DNA from: Kiritimatiellia bacterium
Lineage (GTDB): Bacteria > Verrucomicrobiota > Kiritimatiellia > RFP12 > UBA3636
Reading direction: 5' to 3'
Length of the DNA: 64,000 nt
Assembly: GCA_017481725.1 (NCBI GenBank)
Contig: JAFUOX010000026.1
Span: forward strand, 1-64,000
Shown piece by piece: positions 5,161 to 61,500 of this stretch (positions are counted from its first letter, which is position 1; the number at the start of each line of letters is the position of its first letter). The notes below the pieces were generated by a model. It saw nothing but the letters and a program-made list of their open reading frames with translations. It was not told where the DNA came from and made no database searches. The translations under genes were made by a program, and so were the position numbers.

Positions 5161-5178
5161 ACAACACAAAATTAATAC
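5161..5178 (+). repeat. 18-base recurrent element, copy 1
   Basis: The sequence is ACAACACAAAATTAATAC, in the gap between the protease-scaffold gene and the decoration gene. It is one of six near-identical copies (consensus ACAAYACAAAATTAATRT). The same gap holds an imperfect hairpin (AACGACC, GGTTGTT) with a short T-run, and a TTATATAA-type stretch near 5204. The function is unknown. Confidence 0.7.
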
Positions 5179-10611: not shown

Positions 10612-11365
10612 ATGGCTTTTGATATGAATAACTTCGTAATTGATAGAATCATTCGTGGTGTGGCTCTAAGCCAGAAGGATGATTCCGTACTATTCTCTAT
10701 TAACCAGATTCAGAATGCTTCTCTAAACTGTGCTTCTGAGTCTACTGACGCCGTGGACGCTCTAGGCACTCCTATTGCGACTTTCTACCGCGCTAAGACC
10801 GCTGAGTTCTCTGCTGAGAATGCCCTGTATGATATGAACCTAATGGCTACTCAGCTGGGCACCAAGAAGACCGTTGCTTCTGCTGACGCTAAGATTACCG
10901 TGCCTGCTATGGAGACCTTTACTGTTGATTCTACCAAGAAGTATACTCTAAAGCATACTCCTAAGGCTGAGCCCACCGAGATTTATGCTATCAATGGCGA
11001 CAGCACTTTTGGCGTGAAGTACGTTAAGGCTACTGCTGCTTCCGATGAGGCTTTTGCTATTGCTGATGGCGTTCTGACTCTACCTACCAGCATTGAGGCC
11101 GGTGCCGACATGTTTGTCATGTACGAGTATGAGACCGAGAATGCTGTTGAGGTTGTGAACTCCGCTACCAATTTCCCTGTTGGCTGCAAGTTCGTAATGG
11201 AGGTTCTGGGCTGCGACGTTTGCGACCAGACCAACCTAGTCTATGCTTATGTTATTTTCAATAACTTCAAGCTAAGCCCTGATTTCGACTGGAGCATTGC
11301 TACCGACGGTGCGCACCCCTTCTCTGGTCGTGCACAGCAGGATTACTGCGACAAGGAGAAGAGAT
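10612..11365 (+). CDS. Major tail tube protein, exon 1
   Basis: This is the main tail tube subunit, interrupted near its end by a group I intron. The unspliced frame would stop at 11382 with an aberrant end (R-F-G-L-A-A). After splicing, codon 252 is formed by T11365 plus TG from 11756, and the protein ends K-R-L-F-S-I-V-I-P-G-D-Q-E, typical of tube proteins of Gram-positive phages. The full product is 262 residues. An Ig-like insertion may occupy residues ~100-185 (T-V-D-S-T-K-K-Y, then Y-E-Y-E-T-E). CTA-rich leucine usage fits very high expression. The ATG follows ATGGAGGTAAACGATT. Confidence 0.85.
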
Positions 11366-11755
11366 TTGGATTGGCTGCTTAATTGCGGCTTATGAATAGT
11401 CTCCGTATAAAGTAATTTATATGATAAATAACACATTGAAATGCTGGAATACCCTAAAGCTCATATACCAAAGCGGAATGATGAAATATGCATAAACGTC
11501 ATGGTTGCGAAAGTAGAAAAAAGTTATGAGATGATGCATGGTTAAATCCTAAACATTATTATAATGGGTAATCAGCAGGGAAGCTTTGAACAGAAGAACC
11601 CTCAACGACTATTCCCGTTAAGGGAAGTACGCGACAAGCGTCGCGGAAGTGGTGTGCCCCACGCGTGTGGGTGAAGATATAGTCTGTGCTTTACCGAAAG
11701 GTAAAGGGTACTATTTGGTACCAGACAAGAGTAGCGCCTTGTCTAAACTTAACAG
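11366..11755 (+). ncRNA. Group I intron in tail tube gene (no ORF)
   Basis: This is a 390-base self-splicing intron. P1 pairs exon GAGAU with intron GUCUC (near 11399-11403), with the required terminal U-G pair at the 5' splice site. The core has the TGGAATACCCTAAAG-like P3/P4 segment, GGGTAATCAGCAGGGAAGC, then CAACGACTAT near 11605 pairing with ATATAGTCTG near 11678 (P7). P9 hairpins follow: CTTTACC/GGTAAAG, GGTAC/GTACC and AGACAAG/CTTGTCT. The intron ends at G11755. Splicing restores the tube reading frame and a conserved C-terminus. The core resembles T4 td-type (IA) introns and the fibre-gene intron at 26683. No endonuclease is encoded inside. Confidence 0.9.
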
Positions 11756-11790
11756 TGTTTTCAATCGTGATTCCGGGGGATCAGGAATAA
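11756..11790 (+). CDS. Major tail tube protein, exon 2
   Basis: This 35-base exon supplies the last 11 residues of the tube protein (L-F-S-I-V-I-P-G-D-Q-E, the first codon shared with exon 1) and the TAA stop. It is too short for ORF detection and is seen only by defining the intron. The strand-like hydrophobic ending is typical of tube proteins, which supports the splice site. Confidence 0.85.
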
Positions 11791-11796
11791 TTTTTT
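11769..11796 (+). terminator. Weak terminator after tail tube gene
   Basis: A short stem (GATTCC, GGAAT) overlapping the tube stop codon is followed by six Ts. The stem is only five pairs, so termination would be partial. Confidence 0.35.
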
Positions 11797-11807
11797 CAAA
11801 ATATCAC

Positions 11808-11836
11808 TTGACAATACAAAATTAATGTGATATAAT
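11808..11836 (+). promoter_or_regulatory. Consensus sigma-70/A promoter for HNH gene
   Basis: TTGACA at 11808 and TATAAT at 11831 match both consensus boxes exactly, with a 17-base spacer. The spacer is largely an 18-base element that recurs elsewhere in the window. This drives a ~100-base leader and the HNH gene, so the endonuclease can be expressed by host polymerase independently of the tail operon. Confidence 0.85.
11811..11828 (+). repeat. 18-base recurrent element, copy 3 (left flank of HNH gene)
   Basis: The sequence is ACAATACAAAATTAATGT. With copy 4 at 13009 it forms direct repeats around the HNH gene, 1,198 bases apart. It overlaps the -35 box and spacer of the promoter. Confidence 0.75.
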
Positions 11837-11851
11837 ATATGTGTAAGATAG

Positions 11852-11942
11852 ATGAGGAGTAATTAACCTCATTGATAAGACCAGGGGCCTCCACTCCTGG
11901 TCTTCTTGCACTATTTTAAAAGTGGAGAGTTAGTTATGGAGG
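11852..11942 (+). promoter_or_regulatory. Structured leader RNA that may mask the HNH ribosome binding site
   Basis: Two hairpins are visible: ATGAGG/CCTCAT (11852-11872) and a nine-pair stem AAGACCAGG/CCTGGTCTT (11877-11904) with loop GGCCTCCACT. Within that loop CCTCCA (11888-11893) is exactly complementary to TGGAGG (11937-11942), the ribosome binding site of the HNH gene. CTCCACT (11889-11895) is exactly complementary to AGTGGAG (11921-11927). A loop-to-downstream pseudoknot could therefore hide or expose the start region. Regulation by this structure is inference. Confidence 0.5.
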
Positions 11943-11951
11943 TAACGTGTT

Positions 11952-13037
11952 ATGGAATATGGGAATCAGTTTTCTGTAACAAAATCATTTTATGATTGGT
12001 GTATTGAAAACAATAGAATGGATTTAAATGATAGATTTGATGAAGAAAAGAATGGATGTTCAACCAAAGACGTTGGATATAAGAGTAATTTAAAATGGTG
12101 GTTTAAATGTCCGCGTAGTATACACGACAGTGATTTATACGTTATGCATTTTGTAACTAAAACTTCTGATAAAGTTCTTGATTGTAGGAAATGCAACAGC
12201 GTTGCTCAAGTTGTTATTGACAAATTTGGTGAAGAATATTTATGGCGTCATTGGCATAAAAAGAATACATTGAGTCCATGGGATATTCCAGCCGGGAGTT
12301 CTAGAACGAAAGTGTTTGTTCAATGCGATGAGAAAAATTATCATGTATATGGTCAGGTTGCTTCGTCTTTCACAAAAGGAATTGGATGTCCATATTGTAT
12401 TAATAGAAAGGTGCATCCGAATGATAGCTTAGCTGTAATTTATCCAGAGATTATTAAGCGATGGTCAGATAAGAATGATAAGACTCCGTATGAATATTCT
12501 CCTCATTCTGAAAACAAAGTGTGGTTAAGATGTCCGCAAGGAAATCATGATGATTATTTACAGAAGATTTCAAATGCTGTTATATATGAGCTTAGGTGCC
12601 CAGGTTGTTCGTTGGAAGAAACTAGCGAACGTATGCGTGGTGATGGATGCCACTTCTGGAAAGGTGGTATTAACGGCGAGAATGACACTTTAAGACATCG
12701 CAGAGAATATAAAGACTGGCGTACTGCTGTATATGAACGAGATGATTACACTTGCCAATGTTGCGGGACTCGCGGAAATAAGCTTAATGCGCATCATATT
12801 AATTCGTTTGCTGATTATCCAGACATAAGATATGATGTTGATAATGGAATTACTATGTGTGTAAAATGCCACGATGCGACTGAAAGTGGTTCATTCCATA
12901 ATCTATATGGCACTCATAGTACTACTTCATCTCAATTAAGAGAATACATTCTTAATAAATTTCATAAAGACATTTATCAAACAAATCCTAATTTATTATA
13001 TAACACTAACAACACAAAATTAATGTGCGCCGTCTAA
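11952..13037 (+). CDS. HNH endonuclease with zinc-ribbon repeats (free-standing)
   Basis: This is a 361-residue putative homing endonuclease. Residues ~50-220 hold tandem zinc-ribbon units of the DUF4379 kind (W-F-K-C-P ... C-R-K-C; C-P-Y-C-I-N-R-K-V; C-P-G-C), probably DNA-binding. The HNH domain is C-terminal: Y-T-C-Q-C-C-G, then L-N-A-H-H-I-N-S, then N-G-I-T-M-C-V-K-C-H. It begins at the ATG at 11952 after ATGGAGGT. It is not inside the tube intron, whose 3' splice site is about 200 bases upstream; it has its own promoter, leader and terminator. Its last codons overlap copy 4 of the 18-base element. It probably spreads itself and perhaps the neighbouring intron. Confidence 0.85.
   Translation: MEYGNQFSVTKSFYDWCIENNRMDLNDRFDEEKNGCSTKDVGYKSNLKWWFKCPRSIHDSDLYVMHFVTKTSDKVLDCRKCNSVAQVVIDKFGEEYLWRHWHKKNTLSPWDIPAGSSRTKVFVQCDEKNYHVYGQVASSFTKGIGCPYCINRKVHPNDSLAVIYPEIIKRWSDKNDKTPYEYSPHSENKVWLRCPQGNHDDYLQKISNAVIYELRCPGCSLEETSERMRGDGCHFWKGGINGENDTLRHRREYKDWRTAVYERDDYTCQCCGTRGNKLNAHHINSFADYPDIRYDVDNGITMCVKCHDATESGSFHNLYGTHSTTSSQLREYILNKFHKDIYQTNPNLLYNTNNTKLMCAV
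13009..13026 (+). repeat. 18-base recurrent element, copy 4 (right flank of HNH gene)
   Basis: The sequence is ACAACACAAAATTAATGT, 17 of 18 bases identical to copy 3. It encodes the N-N-T-K-L-M-C end of the HNH protein, so the element and the gene are physically merged. Confidence 0.75.
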
Positions 13038-13053
13038 GCGCACTTTTTATTTT
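13025..13053 (+). terminator. Intrinsic terminator after HNH gene
   Basis: GTGCGC and GCGCAC form a six-pair GC-rich stem with a seven-base loop, followed by TTTTTATTTT. The stem spans the HNH stop codon. Confidence 0.8.
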
Positions 13054-13074
13054 ACCGAAAGGAGCGTGGCCACT

Positions 13075-13425
13075 ATGGCAAGACGCGATAGAAATTGCTA
13101 CCTCTGTGGCGAGGAATATAAATACTGCCCTACTTGTTCCCAGGATAAGATGAAACCCACTTGGATGGCAGAATTCCATGCAGAGAATTGCAAAAATATT
13201 TTCGACATTTGCACTCGTTTCAATATGCAAATGCTAACCAAAGAAGAGGCCAAGGCAGCACTAGATGCCTGTGACCTATCTAATAAAGAAAATTTCAAAT
13301 CCTATGTCCAGCGCGATTTGGAAAATATCTATAAAGAAGAGCCCGTACTAAAGCGTGGCAAGAGAGCAGAAGCACACCTTCTAGAAGATGTAGTAGAAGC
13401 AGCACATGAAGTAGTTGAACAATAA
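13075..13425 (+). CDS. Zinc-ribbon protein of tail region
   Basis: This 116-residue protein has an N-terminal zinc-ribbon signature C-Y-L-C-G ... C-P-T-C within the first 25 residues. A conserved-looking middle (W-M-A-E-F-H, then L-T-K-E-E-A-K) and an acidic helical tail follow. I recall similar small zinc-ribbon proteins beside tail genes in Clostridia phages; their role is not known to me. The ATG at 13075 has AAAGGAG ten bases before it; an in-frame GTG at 13066 is too close to it. It is enclosed by two terminators, so it probably depends on upstream read-through or an unseen promoter. Confidence 0.65.
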   Translation: MARRDRNCYLCGEEYKYCPTCSQDKMKPTWMAEFHAENCKNIFDICTRFNMQMLTKEEAKAALDACDLSNKENFKSYVQRDLENIYKEEPVLKRGKRAEAHLLEDVVEAAHEVVEQ

Positions 13426-24689: not shown

Positions 24690-26682
24690 ATGGGGAAGCT
24701 TAGCATTAAGGAAGCCTTGGGCTATACTACTCAGCGTATTATGGAGTGGACTAGTGGCAAGCTAGAAGACAAAGTGAACAAAGACGGCAACAAAAAGCTA
24801 ACCGATGAGAATTATTCTTTCGCTGATAAAGAAAAGGTTAGTCAAATGGCTACTGGATTACAAGTTCTAGATGGTAAATTGTATCTTACAAATGATTCCG
24901 GAATAATTGAAGATACAGCAACAACTCTACCAGCAGGCAGCGGTTCTGGTGGTGGATCTAGTGCCACTATAACGTTGAATAATTTATTAGAATCTACAAT
25001 TCTTACAACTGCCGTTGGAGGAGAAGCGGTTTTAAGATTTAGCTTTGAATCTTCTGAAGATGATTCTGGCGGTACTGCGTATATTTACGTCGGTGGTAAT
25101 CTTAAGGGAACTTCGTCTATAATTTCCGGAGAAAATTCTATTGATGTTGGTCAATATATTGGAGAAGGAACAAATGAAGTTAAGCTTACATGCACGGATA
25201 TTTATAGTAACAGTAAGTCTCTTTCATATACTGTAAACGCTATTAGCTTACGCGTCACTTCGACATTTGATGATAGCCAAATATATTTTAGTGATATTAG
25301 TGTTCGATACATCCCATATGGTGCAATTGAAAAAACTATGCACTTTGTAGTAGATGATGTTGACACTACTGTTGTTGTTAGCGAAACCGGCAAACAACAG
25401 ACACAGCTATTAACAGGATTGTATCATGGGACGCATGTATTGAAAATTTATGCTACGGCCAATGTCAATGGCGTGGAAATTACTAGTAACGAATTGTTGT
25501 TTGATCTTATTTATATTGAGGAAGGCGTAACAACACCGATGATCGCCTCTGCATATAGTATTACTACTATTACGCAGGGTGAATTAGTCAATATCCCGTT
25601 TTTCGTGTATGACCCTTCTAATTTAGAAACTGAGATTACATTGGAAATAAAACAGGGAGACACTGTGTATTCGTCTGTTGATCGCGTAGTTGGTCGCACG
25701 AAGGAAACATGGTCTACTAGAGATGTACCGGTTGGAGATGTGTCATTTGTCATTACATATGGTGTTGTAAGTAAGATTCACACGATAAAGGTACTTGAAA
25801 ATAATATTAATGTTTCTCTAAAGGAAACTGACTTAGAGTTCCATCTTCGTGCTGCGGGTAGATCAAATAGCGATAATGATCGTGATATTTGGACTAGTGG
25901 TGATATTACTACGACATTTGAGTATATTAACTGGGAATCAACTGGTTGGGTAAGCGATGATAATGGCGACACGGCATTAAGATTGTCTGGTGATGCCAAG
26001 GCGACAATTAACTTTACTCCATTTAAAACGGACGCTAGACAGACTGGTAGAACCATTGAAATGGAATTTGCTATTCGAGATGTTAATAATCGAGAAGCTG
26101 TTGCTATTTCATGCCTTAGTGGCGGTATAGGTTTCGCTGTTACAGCGGATACGGCCAAGATGATGTCCGAGCAATCAGAGATTAGTTGTAAATATACTGA
26201 TGAGAAAAAGATTATGGTCTCATTTGTTATTGAACCCAGATCTGAGTATCGTTTGATGTCTGTGTATCTCAATGGTGTGTTGTCTAGCGTAAAGCAGTAC
26301 GTCGAAAATGACAACTTGCAGCAAACAGTTCCTGTGAATATTTCTGTAGGCTCACCTTATTGTTGTGTTGACTTATATTCAATTAGGTCTTATGACATTG
26401 CACTAACCAAGGAAGAGATACGTGATAATTACATTGCTAGTATTGCGGATATTGGTGAACAGCTAGCCGTTTTTGAAGATAATAATATTTACGATGACTT
26501 TGGTGCCTTAAGTTTTTCTAAATTACAACCTAAAATTCCTAGCTTGATTATTATTGGTGATTTGCCAACATTCAAGGGAGACAAAAAGAAAGTTACTATT
26601 GTTTATTATGACCCTCAGAATCCGTCTTTGTGCTTCGAGGCAGAAGCAACAATTGATGTACAGGGTACAAGTTCACAGTGGT
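24690..26682 (+). CDS. Giant fibre with LamG-like and CotH-like domains, exon 1
   Basis: This is the first 664 codons of a 1,980-residue virion protein split by a group I intron. The N-terminal 60 residues look like a particle-attachment segment (L-T-D-E-N-Y-S-F-A-D-K-E-K). Several Ig-like beta domains follow (residues ~90-370), then a concanavalin/LamG-like domain (about 385-590). The start of a CotH-like domain carries its signature V-Q-G-T-S-S-Q-W. Unspliced, the frame would run into the intron and stop at 26732. With exon 2 the sequence reads S-S-Q-W-Y-V-V-K-N-F-K-T, close to the Y-P-x-K-N-x-K that normally follows this motif. Confidence 0.78.
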
Positions 26683-27837
26683 CAATTTTGGCTACCGTAT
26701 TGAGAAATCAGTATGAAAAAATACTCGTCTAATTGCTGGGACACCCTAAAGACAATTAAACTACAACGTAAAGATGAAATATGCTTAGGCGTGAATGTTA
26801 TGAAAATAGAAAAAATTAATTGTATTAGAGCGAGGTTAAATCCCCTGCTCTTTTTTTAATGGGCAATCAGCAGCGAAGCCGCGAACAGCGGAACGTTCAA
26901 CGACTATTCCATTTGGAAGTACACAACAAGTTTTTGGTTGTGGAAATGGCGAGGGCTCGAAAGGGCCAAGATATAGTCTGTGCTTGGTGGAAAACATCAA
27001 GAAGAAGTAATTCTTAGCATGGGAGTAGCGTCCCAATTTATGTGTTTGATATTTCGAAAAAAAAGGAGGTGCGCGCATGGAATTTGAACATAAAAGTGGT
27101 ATATATATGTGTACTTGCAATATTAATGGCAGAAGTTATATCGGACAATCAAGCGATGTAAAATTGAGAAAATGTCAGCATTTGTCAGAGTTGCGAGGCA
27201 ATCATCATTTTAATCAACATTTGCAGAATGCGTATAACAAGTATAAGGAATATAATTTTTCATGGACTGTTCTTGAATATTGTGATGAAGATGATTTGGA
27301 TGATCGAGAAATATATTGGATAGCATATTATAATACATATAAAGATGGGTTCAATGCAAATGAAGGCGGCTCTTCTAATCGTAATTTTGAGAGAACGGAT
27401 GGGTTTAAGGAAAAGCTGTCTGTAATTTTAAAGGACGTATGGGCTACGGCAGACGATAGGCGGAAAGAATTGTCTGAAAGAATGTCTGGAGATAAGAACC
27501 CTATGTTTGGAAGGTACGGATCATTAAATCCTGCGTACGGGCAAGATCATTCTGGCGAGAAAAATGGCATGTATGGTAAGCATCATACAGAAGAAGCAAA
27601 CGAATTAAATAGACAAGCTCATTTAGGCGCGAATAATAAAATGTCAAAACCTGTTGTTTGTGTAGAAACAAATACTGTTTTTGCGTCACAAGGTGAAGCC
27701 GGAAGGATAATGAATTGTGATAGCAGCACTATAAATAAATGTTGTAAAGGTGTTAAGAAAACCGCAGGAGGATATCATTGGAGATACGCAATGCAAGAAG
27801 AAATTTTAAATCAAACACATATAGCTTAACATAACAG
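26683..27837 (+). ncRNA. Group I intron in CotH-type fibre gene
   Basis: This is a 1,155-base intron. P1 pairs exon GUGGU with intron GCUAC (near 26691-26695), with the terminal U-G at the splice site. Core segments GCTGGGACACCCTAAAG, GGGCAATCAGCAGCGAAGCC, CAACGACTAT and ATATAGTCTG (P7, near 26970) closely match the tail tube intron, so the two share ancestry. The last base is G27837. The GIY-YIG ORF sits downstream of P7 in the P9 region. Joining 26682 to 27838 keeps frame and restores a conserved motif. Confidence 0.88.
27077..27829 (+). CDS. GIY-YIG homing endonuclease (intron-encoded)
   Basis: This 250-residue enzyme lies within the fibre-gene intron. The GIY-YIG catalytic domain is N-terminal: S-G-I-Y-M-C-T, then R-S-Y-I-G-Q-S, a conserved R/K/H region, and E in D-R-E-I-Y-W-I-A-Y-Y. 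The middle has NUMOD3-type repeats (S-G-D-K-N-P-M-F-G; S-G-E-K-N-G-M-Y-G). The C-terminus carries a NUMOD1-type DNA-binding element (A-S-Q-G-E-A-G-R-I, then W-R-Y-A). It should cut intronless fibre alleles and drive intron homing. The start has GGAGGTGCGCGC before ATG. Confidence 0.9.
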   Translation: MEFEHKSGIYMCTCNINGRSYIGQSSDVKLRKCQHLSELRGNHHFNQHLQNAYNKYKEYNFSWTVLEYCDEDDLDDREIYWIAYYNTYKDGFNANEGGSSNRNFERTDGFKEKLSVILKDVWATADDRRKELSERMSGDKNPMFGRYGSLNPAYGQDHSGEKNGMYGKHHTEEANELNRQAHLGANNKMSKPVVCVETNTVFASQGEAGRIMNCDSSTINKCCKGVKKTAGGYHWRYAMQEEILNQTHIA

Positions 27838-30800
27838 ACGTTGTTAAAAACTTTAAAACCAAAACATCTGATGCACATCAAATTGCGTTGGATCAAATTG
27901 CAACTAGAGTACTATGTTTTAAGGCTGACTACGCCGAAGCAACTAGTACACATAATACTGGTACTGCAAACTATGTACATGGTTTGTATAATACAAAAAT
28001 TCCCCCACAGGAAGTAGATGAACGCGCCAGAACTACTATTTATGGACATCCTGGCGTCATTTTCCACAAAAAGGATAGTAGTTCAGAACCAGTGTTCGTA
28101 GGGAAGTACAACGTGAACCACGATAAAGGTTCAGAAGAAACTTTTGGATTTACATCAGATTATCCCGATGTTCAATCCGTAGAATTCTGTAATAACACAT
28201 CTGACGCATGTCTATTCCACGGCCAAATCCCAAGCGATTGGTCTGATGACTTCGAGTTTAGATATCCAGATGGGCACGATGATATCAGCGCGTTTAAAGA
28301 AATGCATGACTGGGTAGTTAGCACCTACCAAGTTGATGCAACTGGTGAAGCCTTGGACACAACGTATGTCGGTGTAGACGGTGATCAACACGCCCATGAT
28401 ACCGCCGAATATCGTCTTGCTAAGTTTAAAAAGGAATTTGAAGACCACTTCGACTTAGAATATGCACTCGTGTATTATGTGTACACTTTCTTTGCTCTGA
28501 TGGTTGACCAGAGAGCCAAGAACTTATTTTTAACTTCATGGGATAAAAAACACTGGTTGTGCTATTTTTATGATAACGATACTATTTACGGTATTAATAA
28601 CCAGGGTGACCTGGTCCTAGACTATTTTTATGAAGATAGAGACCAACTTGGTGATGCATATGTGTACAACGGTGCAACAAGCACACTATGGGTGAACTTT
28701 AAAGCAGCCTTCGCTGACGAAATTGCAGAAAAGTATAGAGAGCTTCGAAGCGACAATAGATTAACTAAGGCAAAGCTTACCGAAGCATATGTCACAAATC
28801 AAGCCGACAAATGGTCCATTTCTATTTACAACGAAGACTCTGATTATAAATACATCTCAATGGTGCGTTCTGATGACGATGCATCTAACCTTGGACAGGT
28901 CAGAGGTACTGGTGTAGAGCACTTGGACTATATGCTAGACAACCGCTTTGTGTATTGTGATTCAATGTGGTATGCAGGAAATTCTGCGGATTATAACTAT
29001 CCCGAGGATTATATTAGTTTGCGTATATACACTCCAGTAGATGAAAACGACAATCCAAGAACTGACTTAGTAGTTACCCCGAATGCCAATATTACAGTAA
29101 CGCCTTTCTCTAGTATGTATGTGGGCGCAAAATATAAGGCAAATGGTACCCTATTACAGGAAAGAGCAACCGCTAACGTCCCAGTGACATTCGTTCCTCC
29201 AGTTAACTCGGATACTGGTGAAGCTGAAAAATTCAACAATACTGAAACCGCTGTGTTTGGGGCATCACAAATTTCGTCACTTGGCGACCTATCTGCGCTT
29301 TATTGCGGCTCAGTTAAAGTTGCAAAAGCTAAAAAGCTAACGGAACTCATCATTGGTTCTGGTATTGAAGGCTATAAGAACGAAAATTTATGGGAGCTGG
29401 AAGTTGGTACTAATAAGCTTTTGAAAAAGGTAGATGTGCGGAATTGTCCAAAACTTGTTGATCCGCTTGGCCTCGCAAACTGCCCCAATATCCAGGAAAT
29501 CTACGCAACTGGCTCAGGCATTACAGGTCTAGAACTACCTTCTTCTGGTTACCTTAAGAAAGTTTATCTACCTGGCACTTTAACTAACTTAACAGTAACC
29601 AACCAACAGTATATCGAAGAGTTCAGCTTAGAGGGCTATGATAACCTCACAACTCTGCGTATTGAAGATACTGTTAATATCCCAGTTGAAGACATTATGC
29701 TTAACGCTCCCAACTTGAATCGTATTCGTCTAATCGACGTACAGTGGGAGGCGGAATCTGAGGCCGCGTTGGTCCAAACTATCGCAAAGTTTAAATCTTG
29801 CCTAGGACTCGATGCGAACGGCAACAACACAGATACCGCCGTTGTTACTGGCCGCGTTAAGGTCAACGAAACAGTTTCCGATGAAGTTGTAGGCGACATT
29901 TACAATAGCTTCCCGGATTTAGTTGTTGACGACGGCTCGGACGAGCTCTATATCGTAAACTATAAGGATTGGGATGGAACCATCCTATATACTGCAAGAT
30001 TGGCTGAAGGCGCAGACGCTATTGACCCAATTAATGCAGGAATTATCTCTGCTCCATTTAGAGACTCTGACGAGAATTATAGCTACGAGTTTGTTGGATG
30101 GAGTACATTGCCAACCAATGTATCCCGTCACTATCAGGTAATTGCCCAATACAAAACAATGGTAGCCGTCAATTTCGCCGTAGATGGAAACGTCATTCAC
30201 TCCGAATACGTACAATACGGCTCCAACGCAGAAGACCCAGTTGCAAACGGCACAATTGAAACCCCCACCAAGGAAGGCACAGACGATCTTCGCTATGTCT
30301 TCGATAGCTGGGATGGCTCGCTATTGAACGTGGTATTACCGAGAACTTTAAACGCCACTTTCGCAAATGTCTACCCTGTTCGCTTCTACGCAACAGACTC
30401 GTCCACAACCCCACACTATGTACAGTGGGTAAAAGATGGAAACGATGCTTACGATCCAGTTGCCGCAGGCGAATGTGACGCCCCAGAGGATATTATAACT
30501 ACCAACGTTAAAACTCTCGTCTTCTCTGCCTGGGATAACATCCCAACATCTGTCACGGCAATCTGCCAGGTTTACGCGCAGTACAACACACATTGGGCGG
30601 CAATTTTCAATAACGAATACGAAGTAGACAAGTGGAAAGTACACTATGTCATGTATATCCCCGAAGGTGAAACGGTGCCGCAACCAGATTGTGAAACTCC
30701 AACCAAGACAAGCACGGCGCAATACGATTTTACATTCTCGAGCTGGGATGGCGACTTTGAAGCAATTACTGAGACGCGCAACTACTATTCCGTTTACACG

Positions 30801-31787
30801 AACACAACTCGCCGTTACAATGTTTATTTCTATCTTGAGAACGGTGACGAGGAACCACTTCAAGTTGTAGAAAACGTCCAATACGGTGACAAGGCAACAT
30901 ACACTGGCAGTACACCCGTTAAGCCCAACGTGGATAATCCAGACGAATATGTCTTCAAAGGATGGCTGCCTGCGCCTGATTACATCGAAGGCGAAACCCA
31001 TTGCTATGCTTTGTTCAAGTTTACAGGATATCTATTCGGCAAATTGAGCGACGAAAGTGAATATGGTACCGTTGACGAACCAAACTGGGAGCTTATAGCT
31101 GCTTACTGGACAACCATCGGCAGTGATGTTGCAGCGTTCAAAGCTGGTACAATGTCTCAGGAAGACTTTGAGGCTAAATATATGATTGGTGGTCGTATGA
31201 TTATTCCTATCGAACTTTCTGACGGCACATCTACTGTTGCCGACATGGAAATCGTTGGCCACAATCACGACAATCTTGCTGACGGATCTGGCAAAGCACC
31301 GTTAACTTTCTTCTGTATTGATCTACCTGCAATTGAAAGACAGATGAACTCGGCAAGTGTTATCAATAACGGTTGGGGATCGTCTGAAATGCGCACATTT
31401 ACAAATGGTGAGCTATTTGAATCTTTCCCGGAAGAACTAAAGGCAATTATCAAACCTGTTATTAAGATTGCTGATGGTGGTACCACAAAGTCTTTGGTGG
31501 AAGTCGAAGACAGCTGTTGGCTTGCTTCCTTTGACGAGGTGGGATTTGCCTCCAGCAGCGCAAATCTTACTGGACAAGGCGAACCATATTCTGCAATATT
31601 CTCAACAAGAAATGCTAGCCGTAAAAAATATGTTGTTGATAGTGTTGATGAGGGACGTTGGTGGCTAAGGTCTTCAAATTATTCCTCAAATCCTGATAAT
31701 ATGTTTTTGCGAGTACAAACAACTGGTGCTTCTTATGGTGATATACAAACCAATGAATTCTATGTTGCATTTGGTTTTTGTATATAA
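27838..31787 (+). CDS. Giant fibre with CotH-like, LRR, InlB-like and DUF6273-like domains, exon 2
   Basis: This exon completes the 1,980-residue fibre protein; there is no true start at 27888. The CotH-like domain continues to about residue 1000. It has D-Y-A-E-A-T-S-T-H-N-T-G, a D-Q-R-A-K-N-L-F-L segment and Y-F-Y-D-N-D-T (near residue 910) that resembles the CotH kinase acidic motif. A leucine-rich region (about 1140-1300) follows. Four or five InlB B-repeat-like units (about 1365-1725) come next, each ending around F-x-x-W. The C-terminal domain (about 1745-1980) looks like DUF6273, a C-type-lectin-like fold, ending W-W-L-R-S-S ... F-Y-V-A-F-G-F-C-I. This is likely a receptor-binding adhesin. 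Wobble positions are C-richer from about 28.4 to 31.4 kb than in exon 1. Confidence 0.78.
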
Positions 31788-56726: not shown

Positions 56727-56819
56727 AAAAGTTACTTGCCTCCTTGTATAGTAATATACAGTGAAAAAGTTGGCTTCTATCGGGGAAACCCTGGAGACAG
56801 GCAATCCCGAGGATAAGAC

Positions 56820-56847
56820 TTGACAAATTTAATTTTTATGGTATAAT
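56820..56847 (+). promoter_or_regulatory. Sigma-70-like promoter sequence inside intron
   Basis: TTGACA and TATAAT are both exact consensus boxes with a 16-base spacer. The -35 box is also part of an intron helix, so this could be structural coincidence. If active it would transcribe the downstream exons and the second intron's endonuclease. Confidence 0.35.
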
Positions 56848-56861
56848 ATATATGCTAATTT

Positions 56862-56879
56862 ACAATACAAAATTAATGT
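56862..56879 (+). repeat. 18-base recurrent element, copy 6 (inside intron)
   Basis: The sequence is ACAATACAAAATTAATGT, identical over 18 bases to copy 3 at 11811. It sits in a peripheral loop and stem of the intron. Confidence 0.7.
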
Positions 56880-57057
56880 CAAGAATCCGTAACGAGTAAG
56901 TGTTATGTACAGTAATGTACGTTTCCACGCCAACCACCCTACTTTTAAGGGTGAAGATATACTCTGATCTGCAAATATAATCTAGAAATGAAATTGCAGA
57001 GATTGGCAGAAATGACCAATCCTTTTGTATTTTGTAATACAAATGTAACAAATTTTG

Positions 57058-57186
57058 AGGTAACAATTACGCAGTATCTTCAGACGGAATTGCGACAGCA
57101 TTACAAGATTCCGCTAGCGCACTTATGGAGGCCGGGAACTCGTTGGAACAGGCCACTGCGTTAGTTGCAGCAGCAAATAAGGTGGT
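57058..57186 (+). CDS. Tape measure protein, exon 2
   Basis: This 129-base exon lies between two introns and encodes G-N-N-Y-A-V-S-S-D-G-I-A-T-A-L-Q and A-T-A-L-V-A-A-A-N-K-V. This is part of the conserved tape measure core. Frame is kept on both sides: a two-base codon remainder is completed by A57058, and again by A58506. It is invisible as a stand-alone ORF. Confidence 0.85.
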
Positions 57187-58505
57187 AAATTTGTGCCACG
57201 TCATTATAGTAATATAGTGACTAGTAGATAACTATATAAGTCAAAAGGTGTGGCTCACCAGAGACTTAGGAAAGATTAATAAAATAATTATGCATATATA
57301 AAATAATACATGGTGATAAAATGAAATTAGAGAAGATTTGTTTGTATTGTGGCAAACAATATTTTATTCCACAAAATCAATTTGAGCGAAGTAAATTTTG
57401 TTCCGATGAATGTTTTCGCAAAAATAAAAATACACAGCTTGATTATTGCTGTGATTATTGTGGGAAGAAAATAAAGGTCCAAAAGGGTAAATATGAAAAG
57501 GCGTTAAATGAGAACAGACATTTATTTTGTAGTAAAGCATGCGCTAATAATGCACAAAAGCCGGTATGGAATGACATTGTTACTTTATTTGATCAGCGAG
57601 GTTATATATTATTGGCTAATGAGTATATTAATGCTAAAAGTAAATTGGAATATATTTGCCCAGAACATCAAGAGTATGGTCCTCAATATATTACATATAA
57701 CAATTTAAAACAAGGCTTTGGGTGTAAATACTGTGGTATAGAAAGAACGACAAATAGCAGAAGGCTGCCGTTTGATAAGGTTAAAGAAATTTTTGCAAAG
57801 CATGATATGATTTTGTTGGATCAAGAGTATAAGAACTCTAATACTCCAATGAAATATATTTGCAAACATCATGTGGAGTTTGGTGTGCAATATATGGCCT
57901 TGTCAAATGCATGGAAACAGCATTGTCCTCATTGTAATACAATTAAAGGCGAAGATAAAATTTCACAGTATTTACTTGATCATAATATACAATTCGTTTC
58001 TCATAAAACATATGACGACCTTCGAGGTATTGGCGGAGGCAAATTATCATATGATTTTTATTTGCCGGACTTTAATTCGTTAATAGAATACCAAGGAGAG
58101 CAGCACGAACGTCCAGTTGATGTTTTTGGCGGTGTCAAGCAGTTTCAAGTTCAGCAAGAGCATGATTTAAGAAAAAGGGAATATGCCAAAGAACATAATA
58201 TTGAATTGCTTGAAATTTGGTATTATGATTTTCAAAATTTGGAGAAAATATTAGAGAATAAATTTTTATTAGTTGCATAATTATTTTATTTTTATCCTCA
58301 GAGACTGCAGGGTATATATGGTAACATATGTACTGAAGTTATCTATCCTACTCTTCTATTATATAGAGACAAGAGGATATAATATACAGTCCGCACTCAC
58401 GCGATAAGCCAAAGTATATGAAACGTGAGAGGTAGCCAGAAATGACTATCCGCCATTATATTATATAATGGTCAGTAGGTGGTTGCACCGAAAGTAACAG
58501 AAGTG
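57187..58505 (+). ncRNA. Group I intron 2 in tape measure gene
   Basis: This is a 1,319-base intron. P1 pairs exon GUGGU with intron GCCAC (near 57195-57199), with a terminal U-G. P7 is formed by GACTG (near 58302) and CAGTC (near 58397). The endonuclease ORF is inserted 5' of P7, probably in the P6 loop. The intron ends at G58505. Spliced exons read A-A-N-K-V-V-Q-D-P-S-S-V-G-S-A-L-R-T-I-S, the expected tape measure sequence. The core differs from the other three introns here, so it was acquired separately. Confidence 0.87.
57321..58280 (+). CDS. EDxHD/Vsr-like homing endonuclease with zinc fingers (intron-encoded)
   Basis: This is a 319-residue protein. The N-terminal ~80 residues have two zinc-finger units (C-L-Y-C-G-K ... 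C-S-D-E-C; C-D-Y-C-G-K-K ... C-S-K-A-C). The middle has two treble-clef-like C-x-x-H repeats (Y-I-C-P-E-H-Q; Y-I-C-K-H-H). The C-terminal nuclease matches the Vsr-like PD-(D/E)XK group that includes I-Bth0305I: L-S-Y-D-F-Y-L-P-D, then I-E-Y-Q-G-E-Q-H, then Q-E-H-D-L-R-K. It probably drives homing of its intron into the tape measure gene. It starts at the ATG at 57321 after GGTGAT. Confidence 0.85.
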   Translation: MKLEKICLYCGKQYFIPQNQFERSKFCSDECFRKNKNTQLDYCCDYCGKKIKVQKGKYEKALNENRHLFCSKACANNAQKPVWNDIVTLFDQRGYILLANEYINAKSKLEYICPEHQEYGPQYITYNNLKQGFGCKYCGIERTTNSRRLPFDKVKEIFAKHDMILLDQEYKNSNTPMKYICKHHVEFGVQYMALSNAWKQHCPHCNTIKGEDKISQYLLDHNIQFVSHKTYDDLRGIGGGKLSYDFYLPDFNSLIEYQGEQHERPVDVFGGVKQFQVQQEHDLRKREYAKEHNIELLEIWYYDFQNLEKILENKFLLVA

Positions 58506-61500
58506 ACAAGATCCTTCCTCCGTAGGCAGCGCCCTACGTACAATTTCACTACGTCTTCGTGGTACTTCAGTTGAAATTCTCGAAGAAATGGGCGAGGAAA
58601 CTGAGGGAGTAGTAGAAAGTACAAGTAAACTCCAGGAAAAACTAAAAGCATTAACTGGTGTCGATATCTTAACAGACACCGGTACATATAAAGACACATA
58701 CACGATACTAAGAGAAATCGGCGAAGTATGGGAAGATCTAGACCCCATGGATCAGGCCGCTGCGCTTGAACTTATGGCGGGTAAGAATCGTGCTAACACT
58801 CTTGCTGCAATTCTCAACAACATGGAAGACCTTAAGGGTGCATATCGGGATGCTCTAGGTGCTGAAGGTTCAGCTATGCGTGAAAATGCGGCTTACCTAG
58901 ACTCTATCCAGGGTCGTATTGACCTCTTTAACAACGCGCTGCAAACCATGTGGATGAACTTGCTAAATAGCGACGCCATCAAATGGTTTGTTGATTTGGG
59001 AACGTCGCTTATTAAGGCGGCCGATAAAGTAGGAATCTTAAATGTTGCAGTTGCCGGAGTCGTTACATATTTTACAGCAATTAAAAAGCACAACCCCGTA
59101 ACAATGTTTAAAGACCTTATTGCGGCTATGCAAAATTACAATCAAATAGTCAAACAAATACAATCAATTGGATCTATAATTGGTCCAGTGAAAAATATGT
59201 CATGGGATCAATTCAATGCTGGTCCAGTTAATGCATATGCGGCAGCAGTAAGTAATTTAACTGCAAAGCAACAGGCCGCAACTTTGGCTGCATCTGGGTT
59301 GAACTCGGAACAAATTGCTTCAGTGCTTGCGGCAAATGGTTTAAGCTCGGCTAATATTAAGCTTGCGATGTCGGAAGCAGGCGTTGCTCAAGCAAAAACA
59401 CAAACTGCCGCTGCGACAGGGCTGCAAATTGCGGCTGCGATGAAACAACAAGGTGTGGCACTGAGCCAAAAGGCTACAAACTTCTTGCTTGCACATAGCA
59501 CAGAAGAAGTGACAAAAAAAATGTTGGCTAAAGCCGTTGTTGCTGGCCAAATAACCCATCAAGAAGCAGTGCTTATTATGAAGTCGATGGGTGTTGTTGC
59601 GGCTAATACTGCACAAGCATTTTCGTGGAAAGCATTAGGCACAGCTATTAGCGCCGCATTTAAGTCCAATCCAATAGGCATGTTAATCAGTATTGCAAGT
59701 GCTGTTACCGCAATTGTCATTCCAGCTCTTGATGCTTTAATTGATTCAACAGAAGAAGTAAAACAAAAAGCAGAAGATGCGTTGACTGAATATTCGAATA
59801 GCCAATCCGAATTAAAGAAGACTAAATCTACTATGGATGCATTATCGGATGATTATGCTAAACTTGCATCTGGCGTTGATGAATTTGGTAATAATATAAG
59901 TTTATCTACTTCACAATATGAGCGCTATAATGAAATTGTTAACCAAATTGCTGATATGTTCCCACAGATGGTAAAGGGATATACCGCTGAAGGTAATGCT
60001 ATTATAAAGAATAAGGGTAACGTCGAAGCATTAACTGCAGCATATGAATCTTTACAGTCGGTTGCAAGCAACACACTGTTAGCTAGCGCCGATGATATTA
60101 TGCAAAATTATAAAAATACCTTTGAGAATAAATGGTATGAAGATGGTCCATCAACCGATTCAAATAAGATTAAAGCATCTAGAGAATTATCAAAGATGCT
60201 TAATAATCAAGATACTTACAAATTTGGAGCATATTTTAATAACAGCAAAAATGACGGCATAATTACCACAATGGTGAATCTGTTGGAGGATGCAGGTATC
60301 GAAGAAAAGTCGTTCACTGAAAGCAGTGAAGATTATGTTAAGCGTGCCCTGACAGAGTTCCCTGGAATTGTGCAAAGCATCATTAATACATGGGAATCTA
60401 CCGCAAATGCTGCCGTTTCAAATGTGAAACCACTAATAAGCGCCTATTTGGATACGAGTGTTGGTTATGCCGGATTAAATGATCAACAAAAGCAAGTCAT
60501 TGATTCTATGGTTGCGTCTTTGGACGAAGAATTCTTTAATGCATTTGATGGTGACGCTTCTAAATTATATACGGCTCTTGAATCAATGATCCAGAATTTA
60601 AAAACATCTGGGCTTGATGATGAATATAATTTAATGCTGAACGTTAAGACATCATTTAATAATGATGAACTTACCGTTAAAGAATATCAAGATGAGGTTA
60701 ACACTTTTAAAACAAAACTTGATAATCTTGTTTCCGATGGTATTTTGAGTGAAACTGATGCGAAGTACATTAAACTATCAATTGGTATTGACGATGATGG
60801 AGTTACTAAAGAATTAGATTCTATGGTAGCTTATGCTCAAAAAATTGTCGATGAAGAAAGTAAAGATAAGATACTAACATTAACTTATTCTGACTTACAA
60901 ATTATTAATAGCAGTGATTTTAAAGTTCCAGAAGGTACATTATTATCATGGACAGAATTGAAAGAAAAAATAGCTGCCATTAAGGCAATGGATCCTGATA
61001 TTAATGTTATTCAGACGTATACCGATTTATCGGGAAAAATGTCTAGCTATAATGACATCTTAGTTCAAACCAGTGAAATAACAGCCAATAATCTTGAGGT
61101 TACTCAAGAGTATAAAGATTCTTTGCTTGAACTTGGTATTAGTTCGCAAGATCTTGCGAAATGTTTCGATGATGAGAATAAGCTCGTTGTAACAAACGCA
61201 AAGCTTCTTAATACTCTTGTTAAAAATGCAAAGGGTAATATTCTCGCAAACACAAAACTTGCTAAATCTCAGGCTCGCCTCCAATACTATGAACTTTACA
61301 AGGAAATGAAAGATCTTACTGGTGGCATGAAAATTACAGACGGCGCAACTTTAAGTTACGTCGAATCTCTGTATGCCCAAATGTCCGCACTAGAAAAGAC
61401 CATCTCGCAGTATTCTCTGTTAGAAGCTAAGTTGCTTGGTGCTGCAAATGCTTATGAACAATTAGAGCAAGCACAAACACAAGATGAAGCAAACGATTAT

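Follow-up and report, generated by a model that had tools for sequence, protein, structure and literature searches.

Whether an intron that carries no nuclease of its own may owe its spread to a free-standing nuclease encoded next to it is the question raised by a tail tube gene in the DNA studied here. This DNA, a stretch of 64,000 nucleotides (the window), reads as a large tailed phage, with a terminase, a portal, structural genes and a long tape measure gene; the contig from which it was taken (C89) was binned with a bacterial genome of 2.6 Mb. A search of the genomes of the host's relatives gave a match in 0 of 144 other genomes. The initial annotation had described a tube intron lacking an endonuclease, followed at about 200 bases by an HNH gene with its own promoter, leader and terminator, and had proposed the pair as a candidate for collaborative homing. 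In collaborative homing, as defined by F-CphI, the target of the nuclease is the allele without the intron, and the presence of the intron spares the nuclease's own genome (PMC6083498). Every stated element of the layout described in that annotation proved to be right (Table 1).

Table 1. Features of the tail tube locus and the adjoining nuclease slot (window coordinates)
Feature	Position	Strand	Basis or remark
Tail tube gene, exon 1	10612..11365	+	aa 1-251 plus first base of the next codon; PHROG 2729 virion structural protein, E 2.5e-22
Intron P1 and P10 strand	11361..11403	+	P1, GAGAU 11361-11365 with GUCUC 11399-11403; P10, GAAUA 11394-11398
ORF-less group I intron, site A (390 nt)	11366..11755	+	RF00028; splice sites from intronless relatives
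Tail tube gene, exon 2	11756..11791	+	LFSIVIPGDQE stop; C-terminus shared with intronless relatives
Consensus promoter TTGACA-17-TATAAT	11808..11836	+	sigma-70-type, 12/12 match; common across the phage family
Structured leader RNA	11842..11927	+	7 distinct sequences, covariation
Leader outer stem P0	11842-11848/11904-11910	+	formed by the first transcribed bases
Leader hairpins	P1 11851-11857/11867-11873; P2 11878-11886/11895-11903	+	covariance alignment
Leader loop-downstream pairing	CUCCACU 11889-11895 / AGUGGAG 11921-11927	+	present in 7/7
Shine-Dalgarno GGAGG of HNH gene	11938..11942	+	complementary to leader P2 loop CCUCC; read from sequence
Free-standing HNH endonuclease, 361 aa	11952..13037	+	two DUF4379 zinc domains and C-terminal HNH
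Intrinsic terminator GTGCGC..GCGCAC-T5	13025..13053	+	overlaps end of HNH ORF
Next conserved gene (CYLCG..YCPTC)	13066..13425	+	right edge of nuclease slot; downstream in nearly all relatives

The identification of the gene at 10612 as a tail tube gene is also backed by its relatives, with which the window shares gene order; the protein has no relative among annotated phage records. After K-R its reading frame departs from the conserved sequence, and intronless relatives go on K-R-L-F-S-I-V-I-P-G-D, the exon sequence in them being KRLFSIVIPGDE followed by a stop. Five relatives without an intron at this position, which we call site A (L005, L007, L037, L041 and L051), served as the reference set for the splice sites. 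Because their exons continue across, the end of exon 1 can be placed at AAGAGAT (11365) and the start of exon 2 at TGTTTTCAATC (11756), with the intron between them; this is the same K-R/L-F-S junction that had been named in the initial annotation. The intron matches RF00028 at 11381-11706 (75.2 bits, E 2.8e-17). It has the conserved group I core from P3 to P9 and, as read from the sequence, a U.G pair at the 5′ splice site in P1 and a terminal G at 11755, closing a 3′ end of TTAACAG; splicing is predicted from these features. The P10 strand lies just ahead of GUCUC and could form pairs with the first bases of exon 2, and the pairing between exon and internal guide is preserved in two relatives with the same intron (L003 and L060). 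The ORF list of the window contains no nuclease ORF within the intron, in agreement with the earlier description.

The site-A introns of the three phages that have one (the window, L003 and L060) are 88-90% identical to one another, compared with 69-80% identity to introns of the same family at other sites. Since the fourfold sites in aa 210-251 of the adjoining exon agree at 30-70%, and those in neighbouring genes at roughly 20-75%, the comparison indicates that the site-A intron arrived, or was exchanged, after the genes diverged and is younger here than the split of the gene. All three alleles with the intron read AGAT/TGTTY across the insertion point, nearly all close relatives without it read AGACTATTC, and L040 reads AGATTATTC. 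This difference would fit co-converted flanks or a requirement of splicing, and it is not decisive because the same bases are needed for P1 and P10. Mapping of a co-conversion tract by fourfold-site identity along the neighbouring genes was dropped: silent sites are near saturation, and tract ends are therefore not mappable.

The nuclease gene begins 196 nt past the 3′ splice site. Its product matches PF14311 (DUF4379) twice (E 1.1e-15) and PF01844 (HNH) above the cut-off (E 5.6e-06), and the HNH motif, read from the sequence as HH..N..H, is intact; with its DNA-binding domains the protein has the features of an HNH homing endonuclease. In other phages, proteins with the same DUF4379-HNH architecture are annotated as homing endonucleases. 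The closest homolog, 66% identical, is found in L007-L010, and annotated phage records hold only relatives below 60%. Between the window and L007 the zinc-domain part is 42-70% identical per 40 aa, against 70-90% for the HNH part, and a shift of target is therefore possible. One contig with a DUF4379-HNH relative (L019) also has a ROOL RNA (2374-2969, 321 bits) near tRNA genes.

Perfect promoters of the kind found ahead of the HNH gene occur twice in the window (0.1 expected). The idea that this promoter is specific to the nuclease cassette was rejected, as it drives many genes in related phages, for example that of a primase-like protein. Its sequence, TTGACAATACNAAATTAATGTGNTATAAT, is found ahead of many genes in the relatives (L063-L102), and its spacer hardly varies, which is uncommon for a sigma-70 promoter. 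The same promoter lies inside two group I introns (L051 1-320; L099 6766-7104), just before the P7 strand GUUCAACGACU, and in L099 it precedes the internal nuclease gene. Direct repeats of AAAATTAATGTG flank the HNH gene; we rejected them as a target-site duplication or insertion scar because ACAATACAAAATTAAT repeats between genes throughout the phage family. This element or a close variant is found at 5161, 6903, 11811, 13009 and 56862 of the window and at many other intergenic loci, and across the family it often sits just upstream of the ribosome site.

Two further interrupted genes were seen in the window. A second group I intron (26672-27829, 62 bits) divides a tail-fibre-like gene (24690-26732 / 27888-31787) and has a GIY-YIG/NUMOD3 nuclease after P9, so that the ordinary internal arrangement occurs in the same genome. 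The tape measure gene is apparently split twice (56740-58506), with a middle exon at about 57059-57190 (GNNYAVSSDGIATALQ..ANKVV). Rfam gave no intron in either gap; the first holds the second perfect promoter of the window, at 56820, and the second a zinc-finger/VSR-like ORF (57321-58280).

Between promoter and nuclease lies a structured leader of about 110 nt. In a covariance alignment of the seven distinct sequences 98.1% of cells are paired and two-sided changes occur at 19 of 23 pairs, figures that are biased in favour of the structure, since the alignment was fitted to it. None of 500 shuffles matched this pairing, and sliding of the partners lowered it to 44-53%. These comparisons show a covarying three-way-junction RNA. 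In all seven leaders (with 5 bp in L040) a strand further downstream, GUGGAG or UGAGAG, forms pairs with the P2 loop, CUCCAC or CUCUCA, and changes are compensated between the two sequence types; the summed score for this pairing is 112, compared with 58 when the downstream strands are shuffled (maximum 83.5) and 85 for mismatched leader partners (maximum 110, since several leaders share a type). A pseudoknot is thus probable. In several leaders, including that of the window with its GGAGG, the P2 loop is also complementary to the Shine-Dalgarno sequence, and by analogy the leader may control translation of the nuclease: in T4, translation of some nucleases is controlled by simple hairpins that hide the ribosome site (PMC2988022).

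Identification of the leader with a known riboswitch or other Rfam element was rejected, as no Rfam family matched it (best match E 0.22, far below the gathering score). A search with the leader model found it only in the tube-gene slot, with a single copy in each phage record concerned, which also disposed of a general nuclease leader. Within that slot the same RNA precedes HNH, GIY-YIG and zinc-domain nucleases, and because these are unrelated it would appear to belong to the locus and not to the nuclease. Our search of the open literature, the coverage of which was incomplete, found no paper in which free-standing homing endonucleases are linked with a leader and a pseudoknot; with no Rfam match, the leader appears to be a previously undescribed RNA. 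In one relative (L060 3569-3800) the leader is still there, but no more than a short ORF is left of its nuclease gene.

To see how introns and nucleases are combined, we compared tube loci from scans of viral contigs and one scan of genome contigs, reduced by sequence to 18 lineages, taking as the slot the interval from the tube gene to the next conserved gene. ORF-less tube introns are present in 6 lineages, at four different sites (A, B, C and D) that represent separate insertions. At site A the slot holds the HNH gene in the window, a 368-aa zinc-domain protein (DUF4379, CapR) in L003/L004/L036, and in L060 the leader with the nuclease deleted; the C-terminal VSR-like IECNGEQH motif of the 368-aa protein was recognised by eye, and Pfam matches its zinc part only. 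L007-L010, with the closest HNH in the slot, have an empty site A and an insert at site B (after aa 209), which matches group I at 42 bits, under the gathering score, with E 1.7e-9 for the stretch searched. Site C (near aa 245) is occupied in L040, beside another zinc-domain protein, and site D (after aa 74) in L051, beside a GIY-YIG/NUMOD3 protein. An intronless group, L041-L044 and L050, has a slot GIY-YIG protein 73% identical to that of L051. Neither intron nor slot nuclease is present in L005, L037/L038, L006, L110, L052-L055, L056/L061, L059, L111, L112, L113 and L058; the existence of relatives without both (L005, L006, L037, L110, L052 and others) is a feature of collaborative homing.

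The promoter-leader cassette is found in 6/6 lineages with an ORF-less intron and in 1/12 intronless ones (the L041 group), and an intact slot nuclease accompanies the intron in five of the six (two HNH, one GIY-YIG and two zinc-finger/VSR-like). By Fisher's exact test the association of intron and cassette has p of about 4e-4 with 11 empty lineages, 2.6e-4 if 12 are counted, and 0.015 among the closest lineages, although the lineages are few and related, so that shared ancestry inflates the association and these figures overstate independence. The introns and slot nucleases thus appear to be coupled, but their partners have been exchanged. The same intron (90% identical) stands beside the HNH gene in the window and beside an unrelated nuclease in L003, and the GIY-YIG type stands beside the site-D intron in L051 and beside no intron in L041; there is no one-to-one match between nuclease family and intron site. 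As the L041 group shows, a slot can be occupied by a nuclease when no intron is present. Nuclease cognates were looked for by way of GIY-YIG relatives, and no match better than 49% was found beyond the slot.

A distant tube gene (L114/L115; L114 4546-5800) came to light through a 22-mer from the site-A intron. Here a related intron, which shares the 22-mer and has an identity of 76-80%, lies at an N-terminal site and contains an HNH/NUMOD3 gene, and the slot is empty. This arrangement may be a before-or-after state of the ORF-less introns. Each tube intron seen thus has a nuclease, inside the intron or in the slot, or else the leader of a lost one.

Our results suggest, with slightly better than even confidence, that the locus is a modular homing hotspot, resembling collaborative (trans) homing with exchangeable partners. 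Splicing of the intron would make its insertion into the tube gene harmless, and the intron itself carries no nuclease. The slot behind the tube gene would house a free-standing homing endonuclease, here an HNH protein with zinc domains of the DUF4379 type, which would be expressed apart from the tube gene, its transcription driven by a strong phage promoter and its message headed by the conserved structured RNA. In a mixed infection this nuclease would cut the tube region of a phage without the block, and repair would then copy the intron, the exon flanks and the nuclease gene together. What the sequences show is the anatomy of the locus, the coupling of intron and cassette, the exchange of nucleases in one slot, the covariation of the leader and a spread of the site-A intron that is recent compared with its exons. 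Splicing, cutting in the tube region and co-transfer are inferred. The related intron of L114/L115, with its internal nuclease and empty slot, also speaks for a modular hotspot; the L041 group, whose slot is occupied by a nuclease although its tube gene has no intron, speaks against it. We propose more tentatively, at somewhat less than even confidence, that self-splicing introns, at four or more sites, and free-standing nucleases of the HNH, GIY-YIG and zinc-finger/VSR-like types behave as modules exchanged by recombination, the type of nuclease changing behind a single conserved leader that times or limits nuclease expression whatever the type.

The layout of an ORF-less intron with an adjacent free-standing nuclease, taken with its coupling across the lineages, bears out the collaborative-homing reading of the initial annotation as far as it concerns arrangement; the specific pairing of this HNH protein with site A finds no support in the comparison with L007 and L003. 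In the strict form of that reading, the HNH protein recognises the intact K-R/L-F-S junction and the intron splits the site to protect the genome. The distance between the two elements, the recent spread of the site-A intron and the coupling of ORF-less introns with slot nucleases would all agree with this. However, L007-L010 have the closest HNH and yet an empty site A with the core GAGAAGAGACTATTCTC, identical to that of L037, which has no slot nuclease, so that an HNH cutting this core would cut its own genome in L007, and L003 pairs the same intron with an unrelated nuclease. The strict pairing is somewhat weakened by these exchanges of partners. It can be rescued if the two HNH proteins have different targets, and their zinc-domain parts are indeed the more diverged, but we consider it rather unlikely. 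It is also possible, though again doubtful and a little less so, that there is linkage only: the HNH gene would be an ordinary free-standing (intronless) homing gene with a target elsewhere, such as the slot or the next gene, and the intron would hitchhike when the repair tract includes it. The occupied slot of the intronless L041 group and the failure of intron site and nuclease family to track each other are consistent with this, and the seg and mob genes of T4 act likewise (PMC2988022). Hitchhiking alone, however, fails to predict introns nearly confined to cassette-bearing lineages, with the cassette in every ORF-less-intron lineage across four sites and in a single intronless one.

Nuclease turnover, proposed by Barth et al. 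for the ICP1 terL intron (PMC10448857), would have the intron losing a former internal nuclease after the free-standing one took over the locus. Such internal nucleases are present in the related intron of L114/L115 and in other introns of the family and of the window (26672), but no nuclease remnant was seen in the site-A introns, and the change could have run in either direction. We regard turnover as unlikely, and it is compatible with a modular hotspot. A role for the HNH protein in packaging or defence instead of homing is very improbable. HNH proteins occur in phage packaging, which is a general point and not specific to this locus; against it, the gene is optional, GIY-YIG and zinc-finger nucleases replace HNH at the same position, and the DUF4379-HNH architecture is that of annotated homing endonucleases of other phages.

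Among known systems, the psbA intron of cyanophage S-PM2 with F-CphI (PMC6083498; Zeng, Bonocora and Shub 2009) is similar in its group I intron, its adjoining free-standing nuclease and the existence of related phages without the intron. For psbA it is established that the intronless allele is cut and that the intron gives protection, both of which are hypothetical at the tube locus; unlike psbA, the tube locus rotates several intron sites and nuclease families at one slot, and its nuclease has its own structured leader. In ICP1 the terL intron and a T5orf172 nuclease are likewise adjacent and separate (PMC10448857), and the authors discuss collaborative homing or nuclease turnover. Splicing of that intron, at a single site, was demonstrated by RNA-seq and RT-PCR, whereas splicing of the tube introns, at several sites, is predicted. 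In T4 the free-standing nuclease mobE is reported to mobilise in trans the nrdB intron, which has no active nuclease of its own (cited in PMC2988022 and PMC3984707); the nrdB intron has a defunct nuclease, whereas the tube intron has none. The seg and mob nucleases of T4-like phages (PMC2988022) are also optional genes between conserved genes, with RNA structure controlling the translation of some. Their leaders are simple hairpins, in contrast to the three-way junction with a probable pseudoknot that unrelated nucleases have in common at the tube locus. Twort orf142, likewise a tail tube gene, contains group I introns as well, and its mention in PMC11878797 describes no paired free-standing nuclease slot.

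How mobile introns gain nucleases is an open question, and collaborative homing is a proposed intermediate with few examples. The common leader RNA suggests that control over the nuclease is a property of the locus, whichever nuclease occupies it. Within one gene of one phage family the nuclease is found outside ORF-less introns, inside an intron, with no intron at all, or lost with its leader remaining; these states form a natural series in which the steps of nuclease acquisition can be tested.
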